In this document: in pieces, positions 7,359-26,942 of the stretch | Layout: the number at the start of each line of letters is the position of its first letter | How positions within the stretch are numbered: the stretch's first letter is position 1 | DNA from: a virus | IMG/VR virus record: IMGVR_UViG_3300043775_001254 | Location: 1 to 28,002 of that record | Direction: 5' to 3' (one strand) | DNA length: 28,002 bases | Program-made: the position numbers and the translations under genes | Notes under the pieces: generated by a model | Told to the model about the DNA's origin: nothing | What the model saw: the letters and a program-made list of their open reading frames with translations, nothing else | The model's database searches: none

Positions 7359-7360
7359 TC

Positions 7361-8284: not shown

Positions 8285-8285
8285 T

Positions 8286-11200
8286 ATGGCAAATCTCACT
8301 AGGAATTTCATGGCGGGTAGGATGAACAAGGTTGTCGATGAACGCCTTGTTCCGGATGGCGAATACATTGACGCACTTAATATTCGCATGGGGTCTACCG
8401 AGAATGCTGAAATCGGTGTGATTGAAAACGTCAAAGGAAATGTTCAGCTGACGTCGTTAAAGTACATTGACGGGACGCCATTAAGTAGTGATGCTCGTTG
8501 TATTGGAGCTATCGACGATAGTGCAAACGAGACTATCTATTGGTTTATTCATGACAGCAATTTTTCTGTGGGAGCCACAGGCAAGCTTGACATGATTGTG
8601 TCGTTCAACGTATACACCAACGTGCTTACGTATCACGTTATAAGTATTGACGATGGTGGTGGTGTAGATACCACGTTGAACTTCAATCCTCAATATCTTA
8701 TCACAGGCGTAGACATTGTCGACCGCCTTATTTTCTTTACTGACGATTATAATCCCCCTCGCTTTCTCAATAGGGCGCGTAACTACGCTGACCCTGTTGG
8801 GAATGTTGACCAATTTACTGCAGAGTCGTTGCTTGTAATTAAACGACCACCGATTCAGTCTCCTGCAGTTCAGCCAATCATTACGGCTAATCAGGATAAT
8901 TTTATGCAAAATCGGTATATCTGTTTTGCATACAGATATAGGTATGAGGACGGAGAGTACTCTGCTACGTCTCAGTTTTCTCCACCGGCATTTATCCCTA
9001 AACCATTTCAGTTCAGCATTAACAGCTTCCTGAATGAGGGGATGACCAACATGGCCAATGCTGCTATTATCACTTATAATACAGGTGGTCCATTAGTAAA
9101 GAGCATTGACCTACTATTCAAACAGGCCGGCAACAATGAAATCAAGGTTATAGAAAGCCTTGACAAAGCTGTGCTTGGTCTTCCCAACAATACAAACCTA
9201 ACCTATACATTTAGCAACAGCAAAATCTTTACGGTATTGCCGCTGTCTGAATTACTTCGTTTGTACGACAACGTTCCTCGCCTTGCAAAGGCTCAGACCA
9301 TTATGGGCAACCGCCTTATGTATGGCAACTACGTTGAGGGATATAATATGGTTGACGAGGATAACAACCCTGTCAGACTCGATTACTCTACAGCACTTAT
9401 CATAGAGCAGATTGACGCTACTAGTCTTTCTGACACCACTACTTCAGGTAATTATAATTACAATGGAGCGCAAACTATTCCGAATGCGGTATTGTCTGTG
9501 GACCTTACAGGCGTTGACTTAATTCAAGGAGCAGCGATTACCATTGAGGTACGTATCAGTCACGAAGAATTTAGTGGAGACACTCCTTTCCCATCTGAAC
9601 AATCAGAGAATATCAACGCTACGTTCTCATTTGTATTGCCAACGTCTTACACTTCTGTGTTTGCAATGGCTACGAGTATTGAGTTCCAAGAAGCAGTAGG
9701 AACAGTAGCCAATATCCAACCAATTGCTACGGCATGTGACGGGACGACATTTACTGACTTCATCAACTGTGCTATTCCAAACAACTTAGATGCGCTCATC
9801 AAGTTTGCAAGTGGTATCAGTGCAGGAGGTCAGCCAATTTCTATTATCACATCACCTGCTAGCCAATCAATCGGGTTTCAATTTCCGGCGATGCGCTTCG
9901 TCAACAACACCACAACTCCAACGTTTGATGTTTATGAGTATTATTCTGTTGTATTTGCTGAAGCTACTTATCAAAAGATTGACTCTCCGAAAAGCTTGCA
10001 CAGCAACAGGGGTTACGAGATTGGCATTGTCTACATGGACGAGTTCAATCGTGCGTCTACTGCGTTAGTTAGTAGAAACAATACGGTTCAAATTCCATGT
10101 TCGGCGTCTGATACAAAGAATAGTATTCAAGTAACAATACCTATTTCTCAAAGGGCTCCATATTGGGCGAGTCGTTACAAGTTTGTAATCAAGCCTGACG
10201 AAGAGAACTACGATACCATATACAGCAGTATCTTCTTTAATGACCCGCTAAGTAACAACGCATACTTCTTGCTAGAAGGCGAGAATGCTCGTAAGGTTGA
10301 GCAGGGGGATAGGCTGATTGTAAAGGCTGACACTAGTGGGCCAACAAACAATTGCGTATACGCAACAGTGTTGGAGAAAGAAGCTAAGCAAGCAGGGTTT
10401 ATTGAGATTCCTAGTGAGCTAGACCCAACTGTAAATATTCCTGTTCCTTCAGGGGTATACATGAAGATTAATCCAAACAGCTTCTCGGTTGTTCAAGATG
10501 AGCTTTCTGTAATTGCTCCCGGTAATGTACAGGTAGACCAAGATACTAGCGGTGAATGTGCAGTTCTTGCATATCCTATGAACCGTTTTGATACTGTTAC
10601 ATCTGCGTGGGTAGACTATGATGTTCCTGCAGGTAGCCGTATCAAGCTAAGCTTTAAGTTTCAGCGTGCAGGCACAGGAGACGGAAACAACTCCTGTGAA
10701 AAGCGTAACTATACTCTAGAGAAAACTCTTATTGCGTCAAACAACTATTCCAACATGAAAGATTGGTGGGATGGTGACAACGTAGAGTTGATTCTTAACT
10801 CAGGTATTCAAGATATTGGTGGTAATCAGTGTGATGCAGACAACGTATATGACCCAACACTTGCTGCCACCATAACTGATATTGATTGCGACCTTTGTAC
10901 CAACCACTATCGCTTCTTCAGAAATGGAAGTAACAACCAATTGTCTTTGTTGGTAAGTGGAACAATTAGCTGTAGCGGACTTTTCGCTAAGAAGAAGCGT
11001 CGCTCTACAGTGATTGTAAATATCGAGGTGTTCCGTGCTGATACCACAATGATATTCGAGACTGAACCATCAGACGCATTGCCTGACGTGTTCTTTGAAA
11101 ACAACTTGTCATTTGGTATTGATGCTGACGGGAACCATTTAGGAAACGTGCAGGACCAAGACATTGCACTTGGTATACCCGGAGTGGTAAATACCGAGTT

Positions 11201-12695
11201 CTTTAACTGCTTTGCATTTGGTAATGGAGCGGAAAGCTACAAAATACTAGATTCAATTGTTGGTAGAACCTTTAGCTTGGGCAACCGAGTTACTAGTGTT
11301 TCTGCTCAAGAATATAAAGAAGCTGACCGATTTGCGGACATGACCTACAGTGGCGTGTACAATGACGAGTCTAATATTAATAAGTTAAACGAGTTCAATT
11401 TGGGCTTGGTCAACTTCAAACCATTAGAAGATTCGTTTGGTCCAATCTACAGGATGGACGGTCGAGAGACTGACGTGCTTGTTTTGCAAGAAGATAAAAT
11501 CTCATACGTACTTGCAGGAAAGAACTTACTTTCTGATGCAGCCGCAGGAGGTGCGATTACATCTGTGCCTGAGGTATTGGGTACGCAGATTGCTCGTGTT
11601 GAAAAGTACGGAATCAGCTTTAATCCTGAGAGCTATGTCAATTGGGGATTTGATAGATATTTTACTGACGTAAAACGCGGAGCTGTTCTTCAGCTAAAAG
11701 GTGGTTCATATAACAGTGACCAATTGAAAGTAGTCTCAGAAACAGGTATGCGTACTTGGTTCCGTGACAACTTTATTGAGACATTTAGTAATCAAAAACT
11801 AGGCGGATATGACCCTTACTTAGGAGAGTATGTGATTTGTACTAATGAGGAGCCGCTACCTCAACCACAAGAGTGTATCTCATGTGGCGTATCTCAGACG
11901 TTCAGTCTTGCTCCGGGAGAAACCCTTGAGTACTGTGTTGAACTTGGACCTAATATTGGAGAGACTGAAATCGCTTATAACGTACCTGCGGGCTCAACAG
12001 GCGTATTCCAAGTAGTAGCAAACTACAATGGGGTAATAGTAAACTCAGGAGCTACGAGCACTAGCGGTACTCTTGAAATCAATAAAAACCAAATTACAGT
12101 AACAACAGTATCGGTTACGATTACTGCTGTAAATACAGTAGAACTAAGCGTTATTATTAGATGCCCGCTATCTGAGTTCATGTCTATCGTAAACATTTGT
12201 TTGACTAGCAATCCTGAAGTAGGCTTCTTTATTCACAACGAATACAGATATACTAGTGGTACATTTACAGGACCGCTTCAACAAACTCTAGTATCGTTTG
12301 GTTCTAGCATCGGGGGGACTGTAGTGTCTGAATACCAAGTACTCACAGGCCTTCCGGGGACAGCAGGATTTCCTCCTCCGGGTAGCTTAATGAATATGGC
12401 TTCTCATAAATTCGGGTTTGATACTTTCAACTTTAATCCCGAAAACGATAAGTTTATGTTCTTTAGGTCTAACACACTTTATGCGAATACTCCTGAGGAT
12501 ATAGCAGAGTTGATTAGCGAGGCTTCTGTTGTTGAAGGTGTTACAGGTTCAAACGGATATTATTCAGGAGACTTCTCTGTGCCTAGTGTCGGAGAATACT
12601 TATATATGATTTGGGACTACAGGCAATCATTGCCGTTGACGCTTTGCTACTCTGAGGAGAACGAAGCTGATGCGTGCTGTAACTGTGGAGGATAG
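8286..12695 (+). CDS. Large tail tube / nozzle-like structural protein
   Basis: At 1469 residues this is the second largest gene here. Its N-terminus (residues 9-55: GRMNKVVDERLVPDGEYIDA, LNIRMGSTENAEIGVIENVK) matches the opening of nozzle or tail-tube proteins of P22 gp10 / crAss-muzzle type found in many podoviruses. Most of the remainder is beta-rich, as in a propeller or barrel tail ring. A distinct beta-sandwich module lies at about residues 1205-1296, beginning TFSLAPGETLEYCVELGPNI and ending near VIIRCP. The protein ends with a cysteine cluster, ACCNCGG. The similar module in the next gene suggests the two proteins share a domain. Position directly behind the connector genes supports the tail role. 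An adhesin or depolymerase function for the C-terminal third cannot be excluded. Confidence 0.75.
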   Translation: MANLTRNFMAGRMNKVVDERLVPDGEYIDALNIRMGSTENAEIGVIENVKGNVQLTSLKYIDGTPLSSDARCIGAIDDSANETIYWFIHDSNFSVGATGKLDMIVSFNVYTNVLTYHVISIDDGGGVDTTLNFNPQYLITGVDIVDRLIFFTDDYNPPRFLNRARNYADPVGNVDQFTAESLLVIKRPPIQSPAVQPIITANQDNFMQNRYICFAYRYRYEDGEYSATSQFSPPAFIPKPFQFSINSFLNEGMTNMANAAIITYNTGGPLVKSIDLLFKQAGNNEIKVIESLDKAVLGLPNNTNLTYTFSNSKIFTVLPLSELLRLYDNVPRLAKAQTIMGNRLMYGNYVEGYNMVDEDNNPVRLDYSTALIIEQIDATSLSDTTTSGNYNYNGAQTIPNAVLSVDLTGVDLIQGAAITIEVRISHEEFSGDTPFPSEQSENINATFSFVLPTSYTSVFAMATSIEFQEAVGTVANIQPIATACDGTTFTDFINCAIPNNLDALIKFASGISAGGQPISIITSPASQSIGFQFPAMRFVNNTTTPTFDVYEYYSVVFAEATYQKIDSPKSLHSNRGYEIGIVYMDEFNRASTALVSRNNTVQIPCSASDTKNSIQVTIPISQRAPYWASRYKFVIKPDEENYDTIYSSIFFNDPLSNNAYFLLEGENARKVEQGDRLIVKADTSGPTNNCVYATVLEKEAKQAGFIEIPSELDPTVNIPVPSGVYMKINPNSFSVVQDELSVIAPGNVQVDQDTSGECAVLAYPMNRFDTVTSAWVDYDVPAGSRIKLSFKFQRAGTGDGNNSCEKRNYTLEKTLIASNNYSNMKDWWDGDNVELILNSGIQDIGGNQCDADNVYDPTLAATITDIDCDLCTNHYRFFRNGSNNQLSLLVSGTISCSGLFAKKKRRSTVIVNIEVFRADTTMIFETEPSDALPDVFFENNLSFGIDADGNHLGNVQDQDIALGIPGVVNTEFFNCFAFGNGAESYKILDSIVGRTFSLGNRVTSVSAQEYKEADRFADMTYSGVYNDESNINKLNEFNLGLVNFKPLEDSFGPIYRMDGRETDVLVLQEDKISYVLAGKNLLSDAAAGGAITSVPEVLGTQIARVEKYGISFNPESYVNWGFDRYFTDVKRGAVLQLKGGSYNSDQLKVVSETGMRTWFRDNFIETFSNQKLGGYDPYLGEYVICTNEEPLPQPQECISCGVSQTFSLAPGETLEYCVELGPNIGETEIAYNVPAGSTGVFQVVANYNGVIVNSGATSTSGTLEINKNQITVTTVSVTITAVNTVELSVIIRCPLSEFMSIVNICLTSNPEVGFFIHNEYRYTSGTFTGPLQQTLVSFGSSIGGTVVSEYQVLTGLPGTAGFPPPGSLMNMASHKFGFDTFNFNPENDKFMFFRSNTLYANTPEDIAELISEASVVEGVTGSNGYYSGDFSVPSVGEYLYMIWDYRQSLPLTLCYSEENEADACCNCGG

Positions 12696-12712
12696 TCTTT
12701 AAAATAAAAGAA

Positions 12713-14203
12713 ATGGCAACACAAGCAACATACTACTTAGACGCCCCATCGCTTGCATCGGCTTCAGTAATTTATACTGACAGCGAACTTACTACTATAG
12801 CTCCTGACGGATTTTATTCTGATGGTACTTTAGTTCGTGAGCAAGCTAGTGGCATTCTGTTACCACAGACTACGTGCCCTACTTGCGCTACACCATGTGG
12901 AGGCGATATATCAGCTACAGGACAGCAAGGCGTTTATTACCTTGACATTGACTTAGGCACTGACGTTGGAGCTGTAGAGATTAGCTTTAACCCATTCAGT
13001 GTTCCTGATGGTATTCAAGCAACATTTAATAGCGTAACGTACAACGGTCTATCATCGCCTTCATTTGGATGGTTGCAAGGGTCTCCGGGGTTGCCTACGT
13101 ACATTGGAGACTCAGGGTCTAACTGTGGATTACCCGGGACATCTCCCCTTAACTTGCCTGTATTCAACTATGAAAATGGAGCATTTGTAAATTCCGGGGT
13201 TGGAGAAACAGTTACCGTTCTTTCAGGTCAATTAGATTTCACCACAGGTGGTCCGGGGAACTCAAAGATGGTAATTGCAAAGACTGCCCCAACACCATCT
13301 ATCCTGTCACTAAAAATGATTGGGCCATGCTCAGGAACTGCGTTCGACATATTAGTAGCTTGCCCTGCCGGGCTTACCGCATTTGACGCAAGTTTACCAT
13401 TCGTATCAAGCACGCTTGCATGTGCTGCGCCTATAAGTCAAGTTTATTATGTATCCCACGTAACGGGGGCTGCAGGTGTCCTTGGGTTGAATGACTTGGT
13501 ATTTGATGATTCATTTGGCCAATACAAGCTAGCCGCAGGATACTACAGAACTAATGACGCAGGAGCAAACACTTGGTTTCAAGTAGATATTTATGGCGTA
13601 GTAAGAGCGTTTGGGGTTTGCTCAAGTGGAGGAACTACATTTAACGCTTCAGTAGGAAGTGATGCTTCTTCAGCGTGTGAAGGCGGTATGCCATTAGAGG
13701 TTGTTGGTAATAATGCAGTCTTCTGTTCTTGCACTCAGTTTACATCAGCAGCATTTGAAGAGTATGCCACAGGCGTATACTACCTGTCTTACGGTGGGTA
13801 CTCGATGGCTATTTCGGTAACAGCAGGAAGCAGTGTTGCTATTGTCGAAGGGCCATGCGTAGCGTGTGCGGAGGTATCTTCAGTTACCGGAGTAAACGGT
13901 TACATGGAGCCTTGTATTGGAGGAACTGTTGACGACCACATGGGAGCTGCAGTATTCTTGGATGCCCCTGTTGCAGTTGATACCGAGTTTGAAGTTCAAG
14001 TATCTTATGTATTCCCGGGGAACAGTTGTGGTTTTGGGAACAATACTCAGACGTTTTTTGTAACTGTTCTAGCAGGCGAAACGGTTTCAAACTTTAATGC
14101 TTGTAGTTCAGGATATTACATATCAGGTGGTGCAAATATTTGTAGCGCTTGCATAGTTTCATGCGACAACTCTGACGTAGACCTTACAGGATTTACTTGT
14201 TAA
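12713..14203 (+). CDS. Cysteine-rich beta-structured virion protein (tail fibre / receptor-binding candidate)
   Basis: This 496-residue protein has 20 cysteines (including CPTC at 55-58, C62, CSC at 338-340, CVAC at 382-385, CSAC at 477-480 and a terminal C496) and almost no predicted helix. Residues 6-55 (YYLDAPSLASASVIYTDSEL, APDGFYSDGTLVREQ) form a module I have seen repeated in Bacteroidota-phage structural proteins. A diverged copy may occur at 244-303. Residues 74-218 form a Gly/Ser/Thr-rich beta domain similar to the C-terminal module of the preceding 1469-residue protein. No catalytic motif or signal peptide was seen. Location just after the nozzle gene suggests an appendage, fibre or receptor-binding role, but this is inference. 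Confidence 0.6.
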   Translation: MATQATYYLDAPSLASASVIYTDSELTTIAPDGFYSDGTLVREQASGILLPQTTCPTCATPCGGDISATGQQGVYYLDIDLGTDVGAVEISFNPFSVPDGIQATFNSVTYNGLSSPSFGWLQGSPGLPTYIGDSGSNCGLPGTSPLNLPVFNYENGAFVNSGVGETVTVLSGQLDFTTGGPGNSKMVIAKTAPTPSILSLKMIGPCSGTAFDILVACPAGLTAFDASLPFVSSTLACAAPISQVYYVSHVTGAAGVLGLNDLVFDDSFGQYKLAAGYYRTNDAGANTWFQVDIYGVVRAFGVCSSGGTTFNASVGSDASSACEGGMPLEVVGNNAVFCSCTQFTSAAFEEYATGVYYLSYGGYSMAISVTAGSSVAIVEGPCVACAEVSSVTGVNGYMEPCIGGTVDDHMGAAVFLDAPVAVDTEFEVQVSYVFPGNSCGFGNNTQTFFVTVLAGETVSNFNACSSGYYISGGANICSACIVSCDNSDVDLTGFTC

Positions 14204-14213
14204 AAATATATAG

Positions 14214-15020
14214 ATGGCAACATATACACTGACATATAGCGAAATGGTCCAAGGATGGCCATCATTTTATTCCTTTCATCCTGATTGGATGATTGGGATG
14301 AATAATTATTTCTATACGTTTAAGGGAGGGAATCTTTACAGACATAACGTAAATAATACCCGCAATAACTTCTATGGCGTTCAGTACAACTCAAAGCTGA
14401 TAAGCGTTCTCAACACCTCGCCATTGGAGAACAAGTTGTTCAAGACCATGAACCTTGAAGGGGATGCTGCTTGGGATGCTTTGATGGAGACAGACCTTCA
14501 GTACTCAGGCTTCATTGAGCTAGGGTGGTTTGAAAAGAAAGAAGCTGCGTGGTTTGCGTTCGTACGTAACTCAGGGACTGTGCCTGCGACACCGGCGGAA
14601 TACCCGCTGCGTTCGGTGAATGGTATCGGTAGAAGCAATGTGATTACAGGCCCTGCATCTGCCACTGAGGTACGTTTTGTTATTGGCACATCTCCGATTG
14701 AGATTGGCAGCATTCTTAGCATTGGAGACTATGTTTACTACAGCTTGCCTCCTAACTTCAACGCCCCTCTTTTGTTTGGTCAGGTTACGAATATTATTGT
14801 AAACTACCCTGCGGGTAATAACAAGATTGTTGTTAATGCTACCATCCCGGGAGCTACAATTCCGTCTATTCAGAACCCGTATATTTTCTACATTAAAAAC
14901 TCAGTGGCTGAATCTCATGGAGTATTGGGCCATTACTGTCTCTTTACTCTTGAAAACAATAGAACCAACAAGGTAGAGTTGTTTGCAGTTGAGTCAGAAG
15001 TGATGAAAAGTTATCCTTAA
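14214..15020 (+). CDS. Conserved phage structural protein
   Basis: This 268-residue protein belongs to a family I recognise from Bacteroidota and marine phage structural clusters, with hallmark blocks YSEMVQGWPSFYSFHPDWMI (residues 9-28), RNNFYGVQYNS (50-60), LFKTMNLEGDAAWDALMETD (75-94), GWFEKKEAAWFAFVR (104-118) and the C-terminal ELFAVESEVMKSYP. Residues about 160-235 form a small beta-barrel-like insertion (GDYVYYSLPP, GQVTNIIVN, PYIFYIKNS). Function is not established to my knowledge; a tail or fibre-attachment component fits its position. It starts ten bases after the cysteine-rich gene and is followed by a promoter-like element at 15029. Confidence 0.65.
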   Translation: MATYTLTYSEMVQGWPSFYSFHPDWMIGMNNYFYTFKGGNLYRHNVNNTRNNFYGVQYNSKLISVLNTSPLENKLFKTMNLEGDAAWDALMETDLQYSGFIELGWFEKKEAAWFAFVRNSGTVPATPAEYPLRSVNGIGRSNVITGPASATEVRFVIGTSPIEIGSILSIGDYVYYSLPPNFNAPLLFGQVTNIIVNYPAGNNKIVVNATIPGATIPSIQNPYIFYIKNSVAESHGVLGHYCLFTLENNRTNKVELFAVESEVMKSYP

Positions 15021-15028
15021 AATTTCAA

Positions 15029-16295: not shown

Positions 16296-18176
16296 ATGGC
16301 CTCATATTATAAATACGCGGAGCGGCAAGCAGATAGTTACGTAGATTGGTCGGAAATCGGTAAGAACATTACCGATATGCTCAAGACCGAGAATCAAATC
16401 CGTGAGGATAAGAAGGCCGCTATTGACAAAGCCTCTCGTGAATTTGGAGAGCAGTTATCTAACTCACCAACAGGAGAACACCAAGGTCTAAACGAATGGA
16501 CACTTAGCTATGCAAACGATGCACAGCAAGCTCGATTAATGCAAGACCGTTTATTGAAGTCAGGGCAGTTAAAGTTGAAAGACTATAACGTCATGCGTCA
16601 GAATATCAACGATGGTACTACTCAAGTATTCAACCTGTCAAAAGAATATCAGGAAGAGTACAAGGTTAAGATGGAGCGCATGAAAGCTCAAGACCCAAAC
16701 ATGTCTTCACAAGAGTTGGAGTCATGGCTTATGGGTACCGTTGAGGGATTCGCAAACTTCACTAAGTCTAAGATTCTAATCAACCCTACTGACTTTCAGA
16801 TTAGCGTTGGTATGATGGAGCCTGACCCCGACAATAAAGGGGTTATGAAACTAACCAACAATGTAGCTACGGTAAACGAATTGCGTAACCGTATCAAAGC
16901 CAAGTTCGATAAGTTTAATACTCAACAGGCCACACAGGAAGTATCAGGTAAGCTTGCTGAGTATATTACTGCTGACATCAAGCGTGGGTCTGCAACTCGC
17001 GCAGGATATGTAGAGACTCTTGAAGACGCAATGCAACGTCCCGGCTATCAGAAAGCATTAGACGAAGCAATCAACTCTTACCTAACAAACCCATACAACG
17101 TGTCTTCAGTATTGACTGAAGATATTGGCGTTGACAAGAATGGTCAGGCGTATACATTTACGTTTAACGAAGAGGAGGCAAAGGGTAAGTCAAATGTGAT
17201 TTTCCTAGAGCGTGACCAATCAGGGATGCCTAAACCTAAGTTCACTAAAGAACAAGAGGATGCGGTACGTGGGTACATGAAGGGTCAGATTGAGCAGCAG
17301 ATTAAACATAAGGAAGAGATTCGTCCGTTCCAAGAGCCTCAGAAACCACAGCCACAGCAATGGCAGTACGAAGCAGGGCGTGGTGTACAAACCGCTAAAA
17401 CTGAAGGTAACATGCTTGCCAAGTTGTATAGTGGTGACTCAGGAGAAATCCAAGCAGCCGTTGACCACTTCAATGGTTTGGGAACTGTAAGGGCTGTCAA
17501 CAGGACCACTGAGGGTGTTGATGTAACTCTTAATGATGGCACAACCAAGACCATTCGATTCAAGAATCCTGACGGTACAGTAATGAGTCAAAACGATTTC
17601 GTTCGTGCTGCAACTAAATTGTTGGTAGGAGATAATGCTGATGTGAATGCAGTGCTTCAAGGTGCTGTTGCCACAGGTAGAACTGCATTTAATGCAACAG
17701 GTACAGCATCTGCTGCAGCTCAAAGAAATAACCCAAGTGAAATGTACGCATCTACCGTAGGTTCAACTATCAGTACTGCTCTTAAACCTACTGTATTCCA
17801 AGATAAGTCAGCAGGATTTAAGGGGTCTGATGGTAAAAAACTTACTGAAGAACAAGTGGCTACAAAGCTAAATGCAAGCTTGAGTAGTCTTGGGTTCTCT
17901 GCTCGTGTCCCATGGACTGCCGGAAACTACATCGTTATTAAAAATAAAGATGGAGTTGAGTCTGAAGAGATTTCATTAGATAATCCAAATGATGCGATGA
18001 AAGCGATTGAAGGATTTATGATTAGCAACGTTCCCGGAAAAGATGAGGAGGCTCAAATGTTGTACTTGAATAGTTTGAAATCTAAGGGAATAATAAAAGC
18101 TCCGGGGCAACAGCCTGCTGCAAAACCTGCAGTAAAAGCTGATGCTACTACACAACAAAGAATTGGTGGCTATTAA
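16296..18176 (+). CDS. Internal virion / ejection protein, middle member of the trio
   Basis: This 626-residue protein is mostly helical and charged, opening with YYKYAERQADSYVDWSEIGK and a long region rich in Gln, Lys and Glu. A proline-glutamine linker (FQEPQKPQPQQWQYEAGRGV, about residues 347-366) divides a helical N-terminal half from a more mixed C-terminal half, and a second Pro/Ala/Lys-rich tail ends the protein. It has no transmembrane segment or enzymatic motif that I can identify. The size and order (277, 626, 2550 residues) parallel the gp14-gp15-gp16 ejectosome of T7 (approximately 196, 747, 1318 residues). It is thus probably a cargo protein stored in the head and expelled before DNA. 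Confidence 0.6.
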   Translation: MASYYKYAERQADSYVDWSEIGKNITDMLKTENQIREDKKAAIDKASREFGEQLSNSPTGEHQGLNEWTLSYANDAQQARLMQDRLLKSGQLKLKDYNVMRQNINDGTTQVFNLSKEYQEEYKVKMERMKAQDPNMSSQELESWLMGTVEGFANFTKSKILINPTDFQISVGMMEPDPDNKGVMKLTNNVATVNELRNRIKAKFDKFNTQQATQEVSGKLAEYITADIKRGSATRAGYVETLEDAMQRPGYQKALDEAINSYLTNPYNVSSVLTEDIGVDKNGQAYTFTFNEEEAKGKSNVIFLERDQSGMPKPKFTKEQEDAVRGYMKGQIEQQIKHKEEIRPFQEPQKPQPQQWQYEAGRGVQTAKTEGNMLAKLYSGDSGEIQAAVDHFNGLGTVRAVNRTTEGVDVTLNDGTTKTIRFKNPDGTVMSQNDFVRAATKLLVGDNADVNAVLQGAVATGRTAFNATGTASAAAQRNNPSEMYASTVGSTISTALKPTVFQDKSAGFKGSDGKKLTEEQVATKLNASLSSLGFSARVPWTAGNYIVIKNKDGVESEEISLDNPNDAMKAIEGFMISNVPGKDEEAQMLYLNSLKSKGIIKAPGQQPAAKPAVKADATTQQRIGGY

Positions 18177-18193: not shown

Positions 18194-21100
18194 ATGAACG
18201 AACAGGCAATACAAGACGCGTACAATCTTTTCGTTAGCAATGGATACAAAAAATCATTGGCTGACTTCAAGAAGCTTATAGCTACCAATCCTACAGCCTT
18301 ACAAGATTCATACAATCTTTTTGTAAGCAACGGATACGGCAAAGACATAAACGAGTATAAGACCTTGATGGGTGTAGGTGCGCCTGCTCCTGTAAAAAAA
18401 AAAGAAGCTACGGAATTGTCTTCGGAAGGTGGTTCTTCGGTTTCACTTATCTCGGATAGGTACCGTCAGCCACAGCAGATTCAGCGAGATGCGACTTATG
18501 TCAAGCCGCCTGTCATGCCTATGGGCGGACCTAAGCCTGTCAATCTAAGCACGACTCCACAGAAACCATCTACTCCTGTTAAGCCACAACCCGCACAGCA
18601 AGAGCAAGGATATGGGGATTACGTATTTAATAGTCTTGCATTAGGGGCAGCAGCTTTCAATGAAGCTGTATTTTCAATTCCTGAAACAGTCTTAAACATA
18701 TTTGCAATACCTCAAAATCTTGTAGCAGAAGCGACAGGATGGGACATTGGTACCAATGCTGAACAGTTTAAAGATTACATAGGTGTCAAAAACCCTTTGT
18801 TAGATTGGGTTAAAGAAGACAAAAAGATATTAAGTGGAGAAGTATCTAATTATGTAGCTAAAAACTACAAAGAATCAGGCATTGTAAACAACTTTGCAAA
18901 CGGGAATTACCAAGATGGATTCGAGCAACTTGGTGCATCTATTGCTCAATCAGTACCTATTAGCGTAGGTATAATGATGGGCGGTGCTTATGCTGCTCCT
19001 GAAGCCCTTGCTGCAGCAACGACTGTTGGTCTTACAGAAGGCCAAAGAGAGGAGCTTAGGCAAATGAACCCCAATATGAAAGAGTCTGAACTTATGATGA
19101 AGGCTCTAGGTATGTCTGCTGCTGAGTCTGTATTCTCGGCTATTGGTACAGGAACTATCGGTCAGGTGTATCGTGACATCGCCGCAAGAGAAGGGAAAGA
19201 AGCTGCTGCAGGAATCCTAAAAGATGGATTGGTTCAGACATATAAGAAAGCCTTGGAAAAAGGGGGGATGGCCGTGGGTTTTGCCGGAGAAGGAATTGAA
19301 GAAGCGGCCACACAGATAACTCAAAACGTAATTTCAGGGAAGCCTGCATTTGAAAATGTTGCTGATGCTTTTGTAACAGGCGCAGGGTCAGGTGTTGTAT
19401 TCACTGCCCCAATCTCTGCAGCTAACGCAAAGAACTACATTAAGAATAAGGCCGAGACTTATGCCACAAAGGATAAGGTTGGGCAGATTCTTAAAGAGAA
19501 TGCCAACAACTTTGACAACCTTTACAATGTTCCTGTTGGTACTTCAATAACCCCTGAGCAATTAGAGATTGCAAACCTAAATAAGTCACGAGACCTATTG
19601 GTAAATAACCTAAAGAAGGGTGTTGAGGAAAACAAGATTACTCCTGATGATGCTAAGCAATCTTTGTATGTGTTCGATAAAATCCAACAGGTATCTAATG
19701 CCGTTAAGGATTTGGATGTAAGCGCAGAAGACAAAGCTAAGATTGCTACATTGCTCAGTCAGCGTAATGATTTAAAAGCTAAGATTGAAAACCAAGACGA
19801 TGTATTGGTAGTACAAGAAAAGCAGCAAATCGAACAGATTAATAAACAGATTCAAGAAATAATTCTAAAACCTAAAGAAGATGCCGTTCAAAAGCAAAGC
19901 ACAGATGAAGGCCTGTTACGCAGCGAAGGACCCCAAGTGGGACTGCAAGAAATGGGCGAAGGAAACAAAGGACCTCAAGTCACTACCGAAGCGCTTAAAA
20001 AAGAAGAAGTAGGACCTAAGTACGTCAAGGACATTTCGGTTCTCATTACTCCCGCCACAGTGCGTGGGTTCGATGAGAACACCAAGCGTATGCAGGAGAT
20101 GTCTTTGAAGTATGATGAGCTTGTCAAGAAGTACAACGAGACAAAAGACGAGGCGCTTATCGCTGACATCCGTGGGCTTGAAGAACAGATACTCAACGAC
20201 ACCAAGCAGGAAATCATCGACAAGGTGGCTACTGTTCCGGGAACCAAGGTTGCGTTCAAGGACCACAAGATGGGGTCTTGGGAAGGCAAGTTTGAGCCTG
20301 CGTTCAACATGACACTAAGCATTACTCCTCAGGCCAACACAAAAGCGCTGAGCGATATGCTATTTGATTTCTCTGAGAAGTATTCTCAGGACGCGTTTAT
20401 CCTTGAGTCTGATTCGGACAACCAAGAAAGTGTCTTCAATGACACAATGGACCTGCCGCTTACTGAAGAGAAGAACGGTTTGCTGTACTATCCACAGATT
20501 GGATACACATTCGCAGCTCCTGTGTCTCGTGAGAAACAAGCGGAGCTATCAAACAAACTTAGAGAGAATGGCATTGATGCGTTCAACATGAACGACAATG
20601 AAGTTAAGGTTTCAGTAATAACATTTGGTGATACAAATCTATCACCTGACGAACAATACAATCAAAAATATGATGAATACAAACGACAATCAGAAGCAAT
20701 CGCAACCGCGGTCAAGGAAGTTCTCGGACCTGATGCGTTGGGAGGAAGAAATGTTAAAATCCGTCGGTCTAAATATACCGGCGCAACAAACGAAGGCACA
20801 GCCGACCAAACAAGAACCTACGATAGAGGTGATGTTTTTGAAGCGTTCCAAGCAGCCCCAACAGAAGTAGAGAATCTAGCGAAGGATTACAACGCCTTGC
20901 GCCAAAAACAAATCGAACTGTCTAAAGAGCAGAAGCAGTTGACAGCTGAAGAGCAAGACCGACTTGATGAGTTGGCTGCATTGGTTCAGCCTACTGTGGA
21001 GAAGACATTCGAGGTGAATAAGAAGTTGTATGAGGACGCTAAGGTTGAGGCCGAAGGAATTGCAGCTGATGCAACCAAAGGACTTGACGCATTTATCTCA

Positions 21101-24100
21101 GGCTTCCCAATCAAGCGCCCGTCTCGTGCGTCAATTAAGACGATGCGGTGGTATGGTGGCTTTACCGAGAAGCTTGGAGATGGCGCTCGCCTGAATATCA
21201 TCGTCAAGAATCCTGCTGATGTAGACAAGGTCTACAATGAAATCAATAAGAAGTATCCGACGACTGACCCTGACTTACGCAGACTCAATGAGAATACTGA
21301 GCTAGGGTATCCCAAGCGATTGATTGAAGTTCGTACGTCAAACGGTGTCATTGCAGAGATGCAGGTCATGACGCCACAAGCATACCTCGCTAAAGATGGT
21401 ATCAATGGTTTCCAAGGGCAAAAAGAATTTGCTCAGACAGAACTGAAGAATATCCAACAGAACTTAGGATGGGCTATCCCTGATGGGCTAGGCCATTACT
21501 TCTATGAGATACAACGTGACTTCAACGTTGACAATGCGCTTCGTGAAGAGGCCACTGCATTGAGTAATAAATACTATGAAGCGTTCACCAACCCTGAGTC
21601 AAAGCTTACTGAATCATTTATGGATGAGGTGGCTGCATTCAAGGACAAGGTTGATGCAGCTGATAAAACAAATTGGGATAGAGGTAACGAAGGCATTGCC
21701 CCTGAATCATTAGAGGCATACTTAGAGAGTCGTCCCGAAGTGCAGGTCGCTACAGAAGATGTACTGACTGCAGACAATACTGATAAGACTACGCTAGAAA
21801 AAACGCTAGCTTTCTTGGATAAAGTAGAAAAAGACCTTGACGCATTTGGACGTGGTAACCTCAGTATGGGCGTTGCCATTCCTGTAATGAAGGCCATCAT
21901 CAAAACGATGAAGGTATTGGTCAAGACCGGTATCACTTTGCAGGAAGCTATTGCACGTGCTGCTGCTGAGAACAATGTCAGCGAGCAGGATGTAGTCGAT
22001 ACCATCAAGGCGGTAGCTGAGATGCGTGTGCGTGAAGGTAAAGCTGAGGCAGCCACAGAGATGGAGTTGCCCGGGTACAACCGCATGCAAAAAGAATTGG
22101 AAGGCATCATCGAGAAGTCTCGTGCGCGTGGAACCACTGAAGAGAAGGCCATGCAGAATGCCATTGACTACTTGCAGAAGTCTCGTGTCTACCAAGATGC
22201 CACAGATGTACAGCGCGAGCAGATGGTTCGTGATGTGCGTAAGACATTTGGCAAGCGTGAGAAGGCAGCGCCTAAGCCCGAGAAGTTATTCGGAGACATC
22301 AAGGATGTGAAGAACATTACCATGTCGGAGAAAGAGTTGCTCAAGAAGCAGCTCATGGATAAAGCTCGTGGTGCTAAGGACGCCAAGAAAGCGTGGATGC
22401 AAACTAGCGCAGCGTTGGCCAAGGCCATCAAGTCAATGATTGGTCCCGGTAAGATTACCACCAAGCAGGCAGCTGTTGCATTGCGTAAGTTCAGTGGTGT
22501 CAACATGTTTGACGAGAACTCTATCAGTCGCTTTGTTGATTACATGGCGAAGGTGTTCAAGAACGCCGAGTACGCTGAGCAGATTAGCGCCATCTCAAAA
22601 GCTTTACCTATTGCTCGTAAGAATGTTCAGAGCAAGATTGGTATTGCTGAAGCCGTAGCGCCTCAGATGATGCGCCTGTTCAGCATCAAGCCATCGCTCA
22701 TCCCTGACGCGGTGTTTGATAAGTATGCTGAGTTGGTAGCGATGATGGGCGAGCGCAAGACTGTACTCAAGCTAGATGAGATTACAAAGATTGCCAAAGA
22801 CGTTGATGATATTCTGACTGCCGTAAACGAAGAAGTATCGCTTGCTGAAGAGCTAGCCGATATGTTTGAGTCTTACGACGGTAAGGTTGTTGACGAAGAC
22901 GGTAAGCTTGACTATGCTGCTACTATCAAGAAGATGGTAGAAGAGGAAGTCATTACTGAAGAGGAGGCCGCCATCATGAAGAAGTACAAGTCAAAGGTGC
23001 TTCCAATGGTAGAACGTGTCGCTAAGACTGAAGAAGAGAATGCAGAAGAGAAGGAGATTCTCGTTAAGGCTGCACAGCAGGCTGAGGTTACTACTACTGA
23101 GCTTCCCACTCAAGATGAACGCAAGGTTGCACGTGACTTGGCTAGGTTGGCAAAGACCGATGCTGTTAAAGAACTTGACAATTCTCAACTGAAGAACTTG
23201 CTCAGGGTGATTGACAATATCAACAATGGTTTCTTGCCTCACTTCGCAGAACTAATGGTTGAAAGATTGAATGCAATCAACAACGCAAAAGACCTTACAA
23301 ATGCTGTCAAGACCGCTAAGCCACTAAAGTTATCGGCCGTTTACTCAAAATTAAAGTCTTTAGTTACGAAGAAGGATGCCATTTCTGAACTCATCAGAAG
23401 GAACCCATTGTACTACATTGACCAAGTGTTTGGCAACTTCAAGACAAAGGCTATATTCAACTCATTGTTTGAGAAAGCTGCTGATGCACAGGCTCGCTAT
23501 AGCTCTGCTGTTACTGAGCTTCAGAACAGATTAGACAAAGCTGAGGAGGCTGTTTCTGCGTCGTTCAATAAGGATGCGAACAAGACCTTGATGTCTAAGT
23601 TTAAGATGATGACCTACATGGTTCAGCTTGAAAAGAACTCAAACCCTGACAGCAAGCAAGTGAATCCTGCTGCTGAATACTTGAAGGCAACAATAGACCA
23701 TATTGAATCCGGGAAGTCTAGCTTCGGGAAGCGTGATGCTGAGATGCTTCAGAAAATCCTTGATGACTACTCTGTAGATGGAGAGATTGATGCAGACAAA
23801 CTGTACGAATCTTTCAATCCTGCTGAGAAGAAAGCCATCAAGACTATTCAAGACATCAACGAATCAATGCGAGACAAGGCTGTGTTCACTGCAGCCATCA
23901 TCCGTGGTGACAAGATTAACCCGCTGAATAATTACGTTCACTTGAATACGCTACATGAGCACAGGCCCGACGAGGCTATCTCAGGAGTGGCATTCGTGGA
24001 CAGCTACAACAACTCGATGCGTCCTTCTACCAAAGCAAAGTCTTTGATTGAGCGTACCGGTAAAGTAGCCCCATTAAACTTTGATGTGTTTGCTTCTGCG

Positions 24101-25846
24101 AATCGTGGTGCCAAGTTCACACTGATGGATTACTACCTGACTGAGCCAATACGCACAGCTCGTAAGACCATCAACGAGACTTCCAAGATGTTGAAGGAAG
24201 GCGGAAAGCCTACCGAGCAACAGCGTGACATCTTCAATGCCATTGACCGTGCATTTGAGGAGTCAGTAGAGAACCTGTTGACTCAGAACTTTACTGCTAC
24301 TTCATTTGGTGACGACGTCGTTAACTTCATATCAAGACAGGGATACCGTGCTATGCTCGCTAGCTTGCCTAGGTTTGCTGCGGAATTGACGTCCAACTTA
24401 GGGTTCGCCCTTGTGATGGCGCCGAAAGACTTTGCTACGGGAGTAAAGAACCGTGACATTGTTCTGTCTGCTGACGCGGTAAAGGTTCTCAACAACGTAG
24501 AGAGCAAACAGACCAACCGCCTGTTCCCGAACGATACGTTGAGCGGCAAATTAGTTGACACGTCAATCCTGAACCAAGCGAGTGGTATCAAAGGGGGCCG
24601 AGCACAGAATGATGTAGCCAATAAAATTCAACAGATTTACAACCTGTCCGGTAAAAAGTACACCAACTTGGTTGAGCTAGGAGCTGATGCTCTTATTGCT
24701 ACGCCTGATAAAGTGGTGATGCGGCCATTGTGGTTTGGTACGTTTGCCAATGAGTTCAAGAAAGCTACCGGCAAGGATGTGGACTTCAATAAAATTGCAA
24801 GCAATGACGAAACTTACATGGCTAATAACCGTGATGCTATTGAAGCTTCGCGCATGGCTGCTGATGAGAAATCGGTAGCGGCAGGTGCTAGTGATAACGC
24901 CTTCATGGGAATCCTCAAGGGAAGCGCCAAGCCAAATCAAAGCGCTATGCTTCGTGGCTTCAACATGTTCAACAGTTTCATGACGCGGTTCCTTATCTAT
25001 GAATACGTGACGGCCCGCACAGGCATCATGGCTGCCATCGGTAACGGCTCAGTGTCTAAGAAGCAAGGAGCGGCAATGCTTGCTGCTGTGGCTACTCGTA
25101 TGACCATGTACACATTGTTGTCATCTACTCTAGCGGCTGCTCTAACAGGCTTGTTTGTTGATGATGAGGACGAAGAGAATGAAAAGTCTTTGCTTCAGAA
25201 GACGGGGCAAGCTATGGCTTCGTCTGCCACTTCGCTGCTACTAGGTCGTGACTTCGGTAACGCCACCAAAGGGTTGATTAACTATGGTGTTGAGCGTGCC
25301 AACGAAGAGTACCTTGACTTCCTGAGAGAAGGAGAGTACGACCCATACAAGGATGCGATTCAGTACACCATTGTTCCTCCGGATAAGAAGGGTAAGAAGA
25401 CTGATGCCGGTGATTTGTTGATGAATATGATGGGACCATTCGGTCCTGCGGCTAAGACTGTTGACCTTGCAATACGTAAGGCAACCGAGGATGATAAAAA
25501 AGAAGCAGACGCAATAGCTCGCTCTGAGAAAGAGACTGCTGTCCGTCTGCCACTTGAGGTTCTTGGGAACTTGGGTATGATTCCTTTGTACAAAGACGTA
25601 CGTAAGGTGGTGAATGCTGAGCTTTACAAAGACATAAGCAAAGCGGTTGACAAACCTGACACTCCTATCATGAATAAGACTGACATGCAGCGCTACAATC
25701 CTGAGCTTTACAATCAGCTTTACGGACCTGAGTCTCCAACCTATGAGATTGAGCAGTTCAGAAAAGAGATGAAGAAGGAGAAGGAGCGAATGCGTCGGGA
25801 GATGATGGACGAGATGTATGAGTACACTCCGAAGCGGAAAGATTAA
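18194..25846 (+). CDS. Giant ejected polyvalent protein (2550 aa) with RelA/SpoT-like domain
   Basis: This is the last structural gene, with the architecture of a large polyvalent protein. Residues 7-59 hold two tandem 30-residue repeats (QDAYNLFVSNGY twice). A Pro/Gln linker follows. Hydrophobic helices lie near 143-182 and 246-279, then a GFAGEGIEEAATQ block. Residues 965-1110 resemble the (p)ppGpp synthetase fold: K974-R975 with SIK (980-982), D996 and R999, G1038-Y1039, E1055 in AEMQVMTP, and H1101. A long helical charged region follows (about 1170-2000). A block around FTLMDYYLTEPIRTARKTIN precedes C-terminal hydrophobic helices (near 2291-2325) and a basic tail. It probably corresponds to the largest ejectosome member (T7 gp16 position) and would act in the host envelope or cytoplasm. 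No DxDGD RNA polymerase motif or HExxH site was found. Whether the Rel-like domain is active is unknown. Confidence 0.72.
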   Translation: MNEQAIQDAYNLFVSNGYKKSLADFKKLIATNPTALQDSYNLFVSNGYGKDINEYKTLMGVGAPAPVKKKEATELSSEGGSSVSLISDRYRQPQQIQRDATYVKPPVMPMGGPKPVNLSTTPQKPSTPVKPQPAQQEQGYGDYVFNSLALGAAAFNEAVFSIPETVLNIFAIPQNLVAEATGWDIGTNAEQFKDYIGVKNPLLDWVKEDKKILSGEVSNYVAKNYKESGIVNNFANGNYQDGFEQLGASIAQSVPISVGIMMGGAYAAPEALAAATTVGLTEGQREELRQMNPNMKESELMMKALGMSAAESVFSAIGTGTIGQVYRDIAAREGKEAAAGILKDGLVQTYKKALEKGGMAVGFAGEGIEEAATQITQNVISGKPAFENVADAFVTGAGSGVVFTAPISAANAKNYIKNKAETYATKDKVGQILKENANNFDNLYNVPVGTSITPEQLEIANLNKSRDLLVNNLKKGVEENKITPDDAKQSLYVFDKIQQVSNAVKDLDVSAEDKAKIATLLSQRNDLKAKIENQDDVLVVQEKQQIEQINKQIQEIILKPKEDAVQKQSTDEGLLRSEGPQVGLQEMGEGNKGPQVTTEALKKEEVGPKYVKDISVLITPATVRGFDENTKRMQEMSLKYDELVKKYNETKDEALIADIRGLEEQILNDTKQEIIDKVATVPGTKVAFKDHKMGSWEGKFEPAFNMTLSITPQANTKALSDMLFDFSEKYSQDAFILESDSDNQESVFNDTMDLPLTEEKNGLLYYPQIGYTFAAPVSREKQAELSNKLRENGIDAFNMNDNEVKVSVITFGDTNLSPDEQYNQKYDEYKRQSEAIATAVKEVLGPDALGGRNVKIRRSKYTGATNEGTADQTRTYDRGDVFEAFQAAPTEVENLAKDYNALRQKQIELSKEQKQLTAEEQDRLDELAALVQPTVEKTFEVNKKLYEDAKVEAEGIAADATKGLDAFISGFPIKRPSRASIKTMRWYGGFTEKLGDGARLNIIVKNPADVDKVYNEINKKYPTTDPDLRRLNENTELGYPKRLIEVRTSNGVIAEMQVMTPQAYLAKDGINGFQGQKEFAQTELKNIQQNLGWAIPDGLGHYFYEIQRDFNVDNALREEATALSNKYYEAFTNPESKLTESFMDEVAAFKDKVDAADKTNWDRGNEGIAPESLEAYLESRPEVQVATEDVLTADNTDKTTLEKTLAFLDKVEKDLDAFGRGNLSMGVAIPVMKAIIKTMKVLVKTGITLQEAIARAAAENNVSEQDVVDTIKAVAEMRVREGKAEAATEMELPGYNRMQKELEGIIEKSRARGTTEEKAMQNAIDYLQKSRVYQDATDVQREQMVRDVRKTFGKREKAAPKPEKLFGDIKDVKNITMSEKELLKKQLMDKARGAKDAKKAWMQTSAALAKAIKSMIGPGKITTKQAAVALRKFSGVNMFDENSISRFVDYMAKVFKNAEYAEQISAISKALPIARKNVQSKIGIAEAVAPQMMRLFSIKPSLIPDAVFDKYAELVAMMGERKTVLKLDEITKIAKDVDDILTAVNEEVSLAEELADMFESYDGKVVDEDGKLDYAATIKKMVEEEVITEEEAAIMKKYKSKVLPMVERVAKTEEENAEEKEILVKAAQQAEVTTTELPTQDERKVARDLARLAKTDAVKELDNSQLKNLLRVIDNINNGFLPHFAELMVERLNAINNAKDLTNAVKTAKPLKLSAVYSKLKSLVTKKDAISELIRRNPLYYIDQVFGNFKTKAIFNSLFEKAADAQARYSSAVTELQNRLDKAEEAVSASFNKDANKTLMSKFKMMTYMVQLEKNSNPDSKQVNPAAEYLKATIDHIESGKSSFGKRDAEMLQKILDDYSVDGEIDADKLYESFNPAEKKAIKTIQDINESMRDKAVFTAAIIRGDKINPLNNYVHLNTLHEHRPDEAISGVAFVDSYNNSMRPSTKAKSLIERTGKVAPLNFDVFASANRGAKFTLMDYYLTEPIRTARKTINETSKMLKEGGKPTEQQRDIFNAIDRAFEESVENLLTQNFTATSFGDDVVNFISRQGYRAMLASLPRFAAELTSNLGFALVMAPKDFATGVKNRDIVLSADAVKVLNNVESKQTNRLFPNDTLSGKLVDTSILNQASGIKGGRAQNDVANKIQQIYNLSGKKYTNLVELGADALIATPDKVVMRPLWFGTFANEFKKATGKDVDFNKIASNDETYMANNRDAIEASRMAADEKSVAAGASDNAFMGILKGSAKPNQSAMLRGFNMFNSFMTRFLIYEYVTARTGIMAAIGNGSVSKKQGAAMLAAVATRMTMYTLLSSTLAAALTGLFVDDEDEENEKSLLQKTGQAMASSATSLLLGRDFGNATKGLINYGVERANEEYLDFLREGEYDPYKDAIQYTIVPPDKKGKKTDAGDLLMNMMGPFGPAAKTVDLAIRKATEDDKKEADAIARSEKETAVRLPLEVLGNLGMIPLYKDVRKVVNAELYKDISKAVDKPDTPIMNKTDMQRYNPELYNQLYGPESPTYEIEQFRKEMKKEKERMRREMMDEMYEYTPKRKD
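18212..18361 (+). repeat. Two tandem 90-base (30-residue) repeats at the N-terminus of the giant protein
   Basis: Bases from 18212 and from 18302 encode QDAYNLFVSNGYKKSLADFK and QDSYNLFVSNGYGKDINEYK. The period is exactly 90 bases. Protein identity is high in the first twelve residues, while many third codon positions differ, so the duplication is old and kept by selection on the protein. Confidence 0.85.
25843..25846. other. TTAA palindrome serving as stop for both convergent genes
   Basis: TAA at 25844-25846 ends the giant plus-strand gene, and the complement of TTA at 25843-25845 ends the minus-strand nuclease gene. There is no intergenic space and no hairpin terminator in the flanks, so the two transcripts must overlap unless ended by another mechanism. 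Confidence 0.9.
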
Positions 25847-26259
25847 ACGTACCGAACGTACTTCATCCCCTTCTGCTTTTCATAGTACACCATGAGCTCA
25901 GCATCGTTTGATGACTCAGCTCGTGGTGTACGTCCACCCCATTTTGCTAGCCCCTCTATTTTATCAGGCTTGCCGTAGATGATGCCATCATCGCAGGCCC
26001 AAATGATTACAGGGTTCAGTCGTTTGTCCATCAGCTTCACAATCTTTCGCATTGCGATTGGAAGCGGGTACGCGTCTCTGATACAGCGTATCCTTCCCTT
26101 GACTTCAGCGTACGCTATTAGCTTCCCATCTTTATCAAACACTTTGTAGTCGATGTCCATCGGGTCTAGCTTCTTGAATGACCCGCCAAATATTTTTACA
26201 AATGTTTCAATGGCTTTCTTCTCACGTCTTAGGTCTTCCTCTGTTTCAAAAATTGTCAT
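25843..26259 (-). CDS. Putative PD-(D/E)XK-type nuclease
   Basis: This 138-residue protein (from ATG at 26259; an in-frame TTG at 26265 would add two residues) shows a compact restriction-endonuclease-like core. An N-terminal charged helix (TEEDLRREKKAIETFVKIFG) is followed by MDIDYKVFDKDGKLIAYAEVKGR, where the acidic D37 and E52-x-K54 form the D...ExK signature. Strand and helix elements follow (NPVIIWACDDGIIYGK). DNA cleavage in replication, recombination or host-DNA degradation is plausible; the exact substrate cannot be read. Its start overlaps the end of the preceding 64-residue gene by 14 bases, and its stop shares the TTAA palindrome with the convergent giant gene. It could alternatively be a nuclease-fold protein acting only in binding. 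Confidence 0.65.
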   Translation of the reverse strand: MTIFETEEDLRREKKAIETFVKIFGGSFKKLDPMDIDYKVFDKDGKLIAYAEVKGRIRCIRDAYPLPIAMRKIVKLMDKRLNPVIIWACDDGIIYGKPDKIEGLAKWGGRTPRAESSNDAELMVYYEKQKGMKYVRYV

Positions 26260-26440
26260 TGTCAATGTCTTTACTGAGCTCTCTCAAGTCTTTCATCAGT
26301 GACTTTATTTGCTCTTTAGCGGACTCGTATTCCCTGTCCACTACTTGTTCATAAATAGCAGATATACTTTCGTGATACCCGTTTGTCATGAAGGCTATCC
26401 TAGCAGCTCTATCATTTTCTTTTTTGTGTTGGTCATTCAT
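26246..26440 (-). CDS. Small helical protein of unknown function
   Basis: This 64-residue protein is highly charged and predicted helical throughout (HKKENDRAARIAFMTNGYHE; YESAKEQIKSLMKDLRELSK), ending in DIDNDNF. I do not recognise a family. It overlaps the upstream DnaA-like gene by eight bases (ATGAATGA: start codon of this gene and stop of the previous one) and the downstream nuclease gene by 14 bases. This dense coupling supports that it is a real, translated gene. A role as a small partner of either neighbour is conceivable but not shown. Confidence 0.6.
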   Translation of the reverse strand: MNDQHKKENDRAARIAFMTNGYHESISAIYEQVVDREYESAKEQIKSLMKDLRELSKDIDNDNF

Positions 26441-26942
26441 CTAGCATTCTCTTGATTTTACGTTCTACAATTTTTTCTTGCCCCATGGGCGTAGCTTCAT
26501 CAATGATTTTCAGAATGCCTCTGAATCTTTCCATCTCACGGTTTAGCTTTTCATTTTCGTCTTGAAGAAGTTTTACTTTCTTCTCCGAGATTTCCAATGT
26601 TTCCCTGAGTCTAGACAGTTCTGATACCGTATCATTTCCGTTCAATAAATTTAAGTCTTGTTCGTCTAATAATAGCAACTCCTTAGATTTTATGTACTTG
26701 CGAATTACTTCTCTGTCTGTGATGAGCAGACTGTCCATCGTACGTAAATAGTGAATGATGGTAGTGTGGTCTTTGTTTATAGTCATTCCAATACTTACCA
26801 AAGACGCCCCTCGCTCACGCAAAATTTTTGCATAAATCATACGTGCATCTATGACCTCTCTCTTCCTATTGTTTTCTATAATTTTTACACCGGTAACCAA
26901 CTCTACTATCTGCTTTACTTTGTTGTAAATTGTGTTTTCCAT
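26433..26942 (-). CDS. DnaA domain IV-like DNA-binding protein with coiled coil
   Basis: This 169-residue protein has an N-terminal region matching the C-terminal DNA-binding domain of DnaA. It carries RKREVIDARMIYAKILRERG (residues 26-45) followed by ASLVSIGMTINKDHTTIIHY (46-65), where KDHTTIIHY corresponds to the DnaA signature that reads DnaA boxes (typically rDHTTV.hA). The AAA+ ATPase part of DnaA is absent. Residues about 105-145 form a coiled coil (ETLEISEKKVKLLQDENEKL), suggesting dimers, and the tail is basic. It probably binds DNA at an origin-like or regulatory site, possibly as a phage replication or host-DnaA-interfering factor. It lies two bases from the upstream VRR-NUC gene and overlaps the next gene by eight bases. 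Confidence 0.78.
   Translation of the reverse strand: MENTIYNKVKQIVELVTGVKIIENNRKREVIDARMIYAKILRERGASLVSIGMTINKDHTTIIHYLRTMDSLLITDREVIRKYIKSKELLLLDEQDLNLLNGNDTVSELSRLRETLEISEKKVKLLQDENEKLNREMERFRGILKIIDEATPMGQEKIVERKIKRMLDE

Follow-up and report, generated by a model that had tools for sequence, protein, structure and literature searches.

A Tas1-like RSH synthetase-fold domain in the exchangeable slot of a giant phage protein, a candidate cargo protein for ejection at entry

The window analysed here, a 28 kb virus record (IMGVR_UViG_3300043775_001254), encodes on its plus strand a giant protein of 2550 residues, P0001 (18194–25846, by open reading frame call). Residues 941–1160 of this protein (21014–21673) form a domain with the synthetase fold of RelA/SpoT homologues (RSH), identified by sequence, profile and fold matches and referred to below as the Rel domain. 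It is nearer to Tas1, a type VI secretion effector of Pseudomonas aeruginosa that synthesizes (p)ppApp (PDB 6OX6), than to RelA/SpoT, and it lies in a slot whose content has been repeatedly exchanged between related carriers. We judge it rather likely that P0001 is a polyvalent-type cargo protein, in which a conserved carrier is combined with an exchangeable slot holding the Tas1-like RSH domain, and that it is ejected and transfers pyrophosphate.

In a phmmer search of the PDB (177,635 sequences) with residues 940–1160, Tas1 was the sole match (E 0.0014). Its E value was 1.6e-7 with a profile built from 16 relatives of the Rel domain and 2.5e-11 with a profile of 19 more diverse relatives, for which the runner-up had an E value of 0.14; one distant relative, L045, matched Tas1 by itself (E 2.1e-5). 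The AlphaFold2 model of the Rel domain had a mean predicted local distance difference test score (pLDDT) of 83.8 and a predicted template modelling score of 0.79. Tas1 ranked first when this model was used in a Foldseek search (E 5.3e-7) and aligned with it over 175 residues in VIA-align (Z 16.1, root mean square deviation 3.0, 23% identity), whereas RelP, SAS1, CapRel and Rel scored lower (Z about 8.3–10.8) and unrelated Pol-beta folds reached Z 8.3 or less. Among the best matches in a viral structure library were a siphovirus protein named Tas1 and large proteins from uncultured phages that carry a RelA/SpoT label. These Foldseek and VIA-align matches bear out the RelA/SpoT-type synthetase fold that an earlier reading of the sequence alone had proposed for this region. 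The relationship to (p)ppGpp synthetases that it drew stands for the fold and the catalytic D and E, but the nearest relative is the effector Tas1/Apk1 and not RelA/SpoT. It had also pointed to the RelA_SpoT profile PF04607 (gathering score 27 bits) as a check, and this profile did not match the Rel domain of P0001; it matched 4 of the 19 relatives, weakly (best E 0.0011), and none of the 8 contigs of relatives in a genome-level search. The span of 21093–21525 was correctly located, and the true domain, as delimited above, is somewhat larger.

Conservation was counted over 29 distinct copies of the Rel domain, wherever a copy covers the position. On the ATP-binding side, the syn1-like motif IK-x3-RA-x2-K (residues 973–982, 21110–21139; this and the following motifs are on the plus strand) is invariant in all 28 covering copies and aligns with IK-x3-RA-x2-K of Tas1. 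The syn2-like motif D996-G-A-R999 (21179–21190), which contains the metal-binding Asp, aligns with D-L-A-R of Tas1, and the syn4 motif E1055-M-Q1057 (21356–21364), at the position of the catalytic Glu, aligns with E-I-Q; the correspondence of D996 and E1055 with Tas1 is read from the alignment. The alignment also shows a C-terminal motif common to Tas1 (P-x-G-x-G-H-x2-Y-E), which in P0001 reads PDGLGHYFYEIQRD (residues 1096–1109, 21479–21520). I973, K974, R978, A979, K982, R985, D996, R999, Y1039, E1055 and Q1057 are invariant in 28/28 covering copies and H1101 and R1108 in 27/27, and the ATP-binding, metal-binding and catalytic residues stay invariant down to ~53% identity. The Rel domain is under strong purifying selection, with a ratio of nonsynonymous to synonymous substitution rates of 0.05–0.15 for most pairs of copies; a single pair of very similar copies gave 0.36.

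The syn3 position is occupied by GYPKRLIE (residues 1038–1045, 21305–21328), with the family signature Y-P-K-x-L instead of GYxSxH or GxN. Throughout the family, the stretch reads GY-P-K-(R/K/Q)-L, in which Y, P, K and L are invariant; K1041 is thus invariant and R1042 is present in 26/28 copies, which places basic residues at the acceptor site. All residues cited in the sequence-only reading (K974, R975, S980-I981-K982, D996, R999, G1038-Y1039, E1055-x-Q1057 and H1101) are present at the positions given there. Of those it likened to the RxKxxxSI motif, K974 and K982 are conserved, but R975 and S980 are not conserved positions, and the conserved set is I973-K974-x3-R978-A979-x2-K982. The GYxxLH block that it recognised does begin syn3 with G1038-Y1039, but the remainder of GYxSxH is missing.

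The exchangeable payload slot was delimited by carrier alignments to residues ~607–1187 (20012–21754, plus strand, as are all parts of P0001). It comprises an upstream domain (residues 607–890, 20012–20863), defined by alignment and a predicted model, a helical neck (residues 891–940, 20864–21013), which accompanies the Rel domain in distant carriers, and the Rel domain. The slot is followed by the conserved C-part of the carrier (residues 1188–2548, 21755–25837), in which residues 1711–2528 match phrog_32588 (E 1.7e-89). Among 41 contigs with the C-part, collected independently of the Rel domain, many lack this domain. Two Rel-less carriers, L049 and L051, are 69% identical to P0001 from residue 1187–1188 to about residue 2548, and their slot cannot be aligned with that of P0001. 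L004, which has the Rel domain, and L058, which does not, share 92% identity between L004 residue 1335, where the Rel domain ends, and the C-terminus; they also share 387–604 upstream, and the stretch in between is replaced. A tree was built of 34 carriers (15 with the Rel domain and 19 without); the sampling was biased and two of the branches are very long. Its strongly supported branches require at least seven changes of Rel presence. The content of the slot has therefore been exchanged repeatedly between related carriers.

Other modules are found in the region before the C-part: LPD23 (5e-13) with a weak match to the DUF6782 metallopeptidase in L068 (6509–8746), ART-PolyVal (2.8e-7) in L069 (6479–8776) and DUF7178 in L082 (6371–8779) and L083 (6413–8803; 8e-23 and 2e-35, respectively). 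Pfam recognised nothing in this region of several further carriers. Since near relatives hold other modules there, P0001 has the appearance of a carrier whose payload can be exchanged. In five distant giants (L032, L041, L042, L044 and L045), the alignment with P0001 is confined to the slot region, and the alignment of L041, L042, L044 and L045 starts at residue ~891–898; the Rel domain and the helical neck therefore also occur in other carriers. The upstream domain (modelled for window positions 20012–21028, pLDDT 87) accompanies the Rel domain in near, not distant, relatives. A fold search with it gave no clear match, the best being McrD over 86 residues at Z 8.2, within the common ferredoxin-like range.

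Directly before the slot, many giants contain an in-frame DNA element of ~110 nt with the core GATGCCRTTCAARARCAA; in P0001 this slot-border element spans residues 559–609 (19868–20020) and is marked by conservation at the DNA level over ~110 nt. It is present in at least 120 viral contig stretches, where the genes that contain it are of two unrelated types and encode either the giant or a ~400-residue protein, whose elemo relative is encoded immediately after the portal, and it also occurs at L047 3185 and 3581 and at L093 2404–2436. The core is partly fixed by the search pattern, and the codon comparison was limited to codons after it: in two ~400-residue genes the same codon is used at 89% of same-residue positions inside the element versus 59% outside, and between the giant and the ~400-residue gene types at 84% of such positions in the element. 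Each of the seven long contigs that have the element contains exactly one copy. Searches of plasmids and of 395 genomes from one phylum gave no match to it, and no RNA structure was found for it. In several carrier pairs the upstream homology stops within about 10 residues of the element, which suggests that it may act as a recombination anchor; among the candidate roles, it may also be a packaging site or an in-frame mobile element. A further-reaching proposal, that the element is the left border of a dedicated recombining slot in an ejected virion protein and that the RSH payload with YPKxL would use an acceptor beyond the ATP and GTP nucleotides, seems to us unlikely.

The P0001 gene sits among late structural genes. 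The plus strand of the window also encodes a portal protein (671–3106; phrog_6547, E 8.5e-142; 77% to MW202828), a muzzle-like tail protein (8286–12695; phrog_14478, E 1.2e-218; PF25731 at E 2.5e-6, just under the cut-off) and, adjoining the giant, a 626-residue protein (16296–18176; phrog_35506, E 2.5e-20), which has the position of gp125 of phi13:2, a 'virion structural protein', and is a second cargo candidate. Convergent with the giant gene, on the minus strand, are the genes of a putative PDDEXK endonuclease (25843–26265; PF24579 at E 2.9e-5, just under the cut-off) and of a small protein with the DnaA C-terminal helix-turn-helix (26433–26942; PF08299, E 1.8e-8). The portal matches come from phages of Flavobacterium (elemo), Cellulophaga and Tenacibaculum and from the spring-water genome MW202828. 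Based on the portal, muzzle-like and other virion families and on these portal matches, the phage is assigned as a Bacteroidetes podovirus related to crAss-type phages. This is in agreement with the podovirus giant that the sequence-only reading had named as the host of the domain, as the tail genes resemble those of crAss-like phages.

The profile of the carrier C-part matches the giant of elemo (E 9.5e-28), which is annotated as a structural protein, and the giant at the same gene position in Cellulophaga phage phi13:2 is annotated as a virion structural protein. The phi13:2 giant has no sequence match to the carrier, and the C-part profile reached neither this giant nor that of MW202828; mass-spectrometry evidence for the elemo giant was not found in the literature searched. 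Particles of crAss001 contain large cargo proteins (PMC10172136). From synteny, the annotated homologous or syntenic giants and the crAss001 cargo, we infer that P0001 is probably packaged in the virion and would be ejected into the host. In Pfam searches of P0001, no PAAR, MuF or LPD domain was matched, and the Rel module is the only module that the protein shows. Weak Pfam names such as Tox-REase-5 and CtsR_C were dropped as below the cut-off. A role as a membrane channel is unsupported, as a hydropathy scan (19-residue window, mean >1.6) listed no transmembrane stretch.

In the mechanism that we propose, P0001 would be packaged in the head and enter the host together with the genome, as the large cargo proteins of crAss-like phages do. 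The Rel domain would move pyrophosphate from ATP onto a 3'-hydroxyl group of an acceptor. As with Tas1, this would most likely be an adenosine nucleotide, and the transfer would drain ATP and, at entry, block metabolism or defence of the host. Of these steps we are least sure of the acceptor, since the invariant YPKxL takes the place of syn3. Guanosine enzymes are characterized by SxH at the acceptor site and adenosine enzymes by GxN (PMC12226406); YPKxL fits neither signature, and the acceptor may differ. For the same reason, a stringent-response-type activity, as suggested in the sequence-only reading, stays tentative, and with PF04607 unmatched and GYxSxH replaced, the enzyme may produce ppApp, ppGpp or a modified tRNA. 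Two further observations join the syn3 mismatch in weighing against the proposed mechanism: the syn1 loop (domain residues 36–56) is modelled at pLDDT <50, and no PF13328-type alarmone hydrolase was found in the 8 long Rel-bearing contigs, which are possibly incomplete and in which the PF13328 model may miss Aph1. MazG (PF03819) was also not found in the Rel-bearing contigs.

Since the motif does not reveal the choice of acceptor, the Rel domain might instead make (p)ppGpp and, as a mimic of the stringent response, hold host transcription and translation down at entry; Apk1 homologues such as VpEAS and AaEAS synthesize only (p)ppGpp (PMC12691689). However, the nearest solved relative, Tas1, is a (p)ppApp enzyme and the SxH guanosine motif is missing from the Rel domain, and we regard this activity as somewhat unlikely. 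Pyrophosphorylation of tRNA 3'-CCA ends in the manner of FaRel2/CapRel, by which the Rel domain would shut translation, appears distinctly unlikely. The basic residues K1041 and R1042 would suit a polyanionic acceptor and CapRel ranks with the better matches by structure (Z 10.6), but this score is far below that of Tas1 and level with those of ordinary small alarmone synthetases. The rewritten syn3 could also point to a catalytically dead fold, retained as a structural or binding module. This is very improbable in view of the strong purifying selection and of the invariance of the ATP-binding, metal-binding and catalytic residues over the range of identities given above.

The Rel domain could also be an active enzyme that works late in the producing cell, to shut off the host or to exclude rival phages, without being ejected at all. 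In favour of this, the presence of P0001 in the virion is deduced from annotation and gene position. However, the carrier gene belongs to the structural block, giants that are homologous or syntenic to it carry annotations as structural or virion proteins, and the alarmone hydrolase that would protect a producing cell is the one missing from the 8 long contigs, with the limits stated for that search. We consider late action unlikely, and ejection of a pyrophosphate-transferring cargo protein remains our preferred reading.

Judged from sequence searches, the close family of the Rel domain is essentially phage-bound. In genomes it was found in two contigs, both with fragments, and in one of the 395 genomes of one phylum, which was the one already known. 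In tblastn searches against phage records, the Rel domain gave one marginal match only (E 0.3, 24%) and a distant relative gave none. In L040 (6429–9866), from an Ignavibacteriales metagenome-assembled genome (MAG), a type II CRISPR array with 25 clustered copies of a 47-nt repeat lies beside a Cas9-like (11292–15023) and a Cas1-like (10321–11295) open reading frame. The array is interrupted by ~1.6 kb (about 6861–8438) coding for two 93.5%-identical tandem pieces of a Rel-bearing phage protein; the insert resembles a giant spacer and could be an assembly artefact. In L039 (7505–8945), from a Chitinophagales MAG, a piece of a Rel-bearing phage gene is flanked by a pair of 50-nt direct repeats with 98% identity to each other, and the Azospirillum oryzae plasmid NZ_CP054617.1 (L092, 5836–6555) encodes a stand-alone hypothetical protein that is 35% identical to the L045 phage domain.

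If the proposed mechanism is true, alarmone-type enzymes would be among the first proteins delivered by a group of Bacteroidetes phages. Near-identical carriers with and without the enzyme would offer a natural comparison set for the effect of the payload on host range and defence, and the enzyme, with its rewritten acceptor motif, is a candidate for an RSH specificity that would be new.

When the Rel domain is compared with Tas1/Apk1, the fold and the motifs IK-x3-RA-x2-K, D-x-A-R, GY, E-x-Q and P-x-G-x-G-H-x2-Y-E are common to both. However, P0001 has no PAAR domain and no recognised adjacent immunity gene, its Rel domain is embedded midway along a giant protein of a phage, and the syn3 sequence is GYPKRL instead of GYSGVN in Tas1. 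Exported relatives of Apk1 include (p)ppGpp-only enzymes (PMC12691689). The MuF-Apk2 toxins of temperate phages, which make (p)ppApp (PMC12226406), likewise carry an RSH synthetase domain on a particle-associated phage protein, as P0001 probably is. They differ in the MuF carrier, the C-terminal position of the domain and the iapK/aph1 immunity genes (an alarmone hydrolase and an inhibitor gene), whereas P0001 has a giant carrier and an internal slot, with no known hydrolase found, and the window showed no sign of a temperate lifestyle. Iyer et al. 2017 (PMC5512222) described RelA/SpoT domains in polyvalent proteins of phages and proposed that these domains trigger an alarmone-like response. 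In P0001, too, the RSH domain is a single module within a large phage protein of several domains, and ART-PolyVal and LPD23, modules of that class, are found in related carriers, as is DUF7178; P0001 differs in its crAss-related podovirus lineage, its Tas1-like subfamily and the tree-based evidence for slot exchange. The crAss001 cargos, which P0001 resembles by gene position, are large proteins whose genes follow that of the muzzle and which are packaged in the particle (PMC10172136); they are thought to be channel-forming or RNA-polymerase-related. No description of a Tas1-like subfamily with a rewritten syn3 in an exchanged phage slot was found in the literature searched. In summary, this kind of protein is already known, and what appears to be new is the Tas1-like subfamily with its rewritten syn3, its occurrence in this phage group and a demonstrably exchanged slot.

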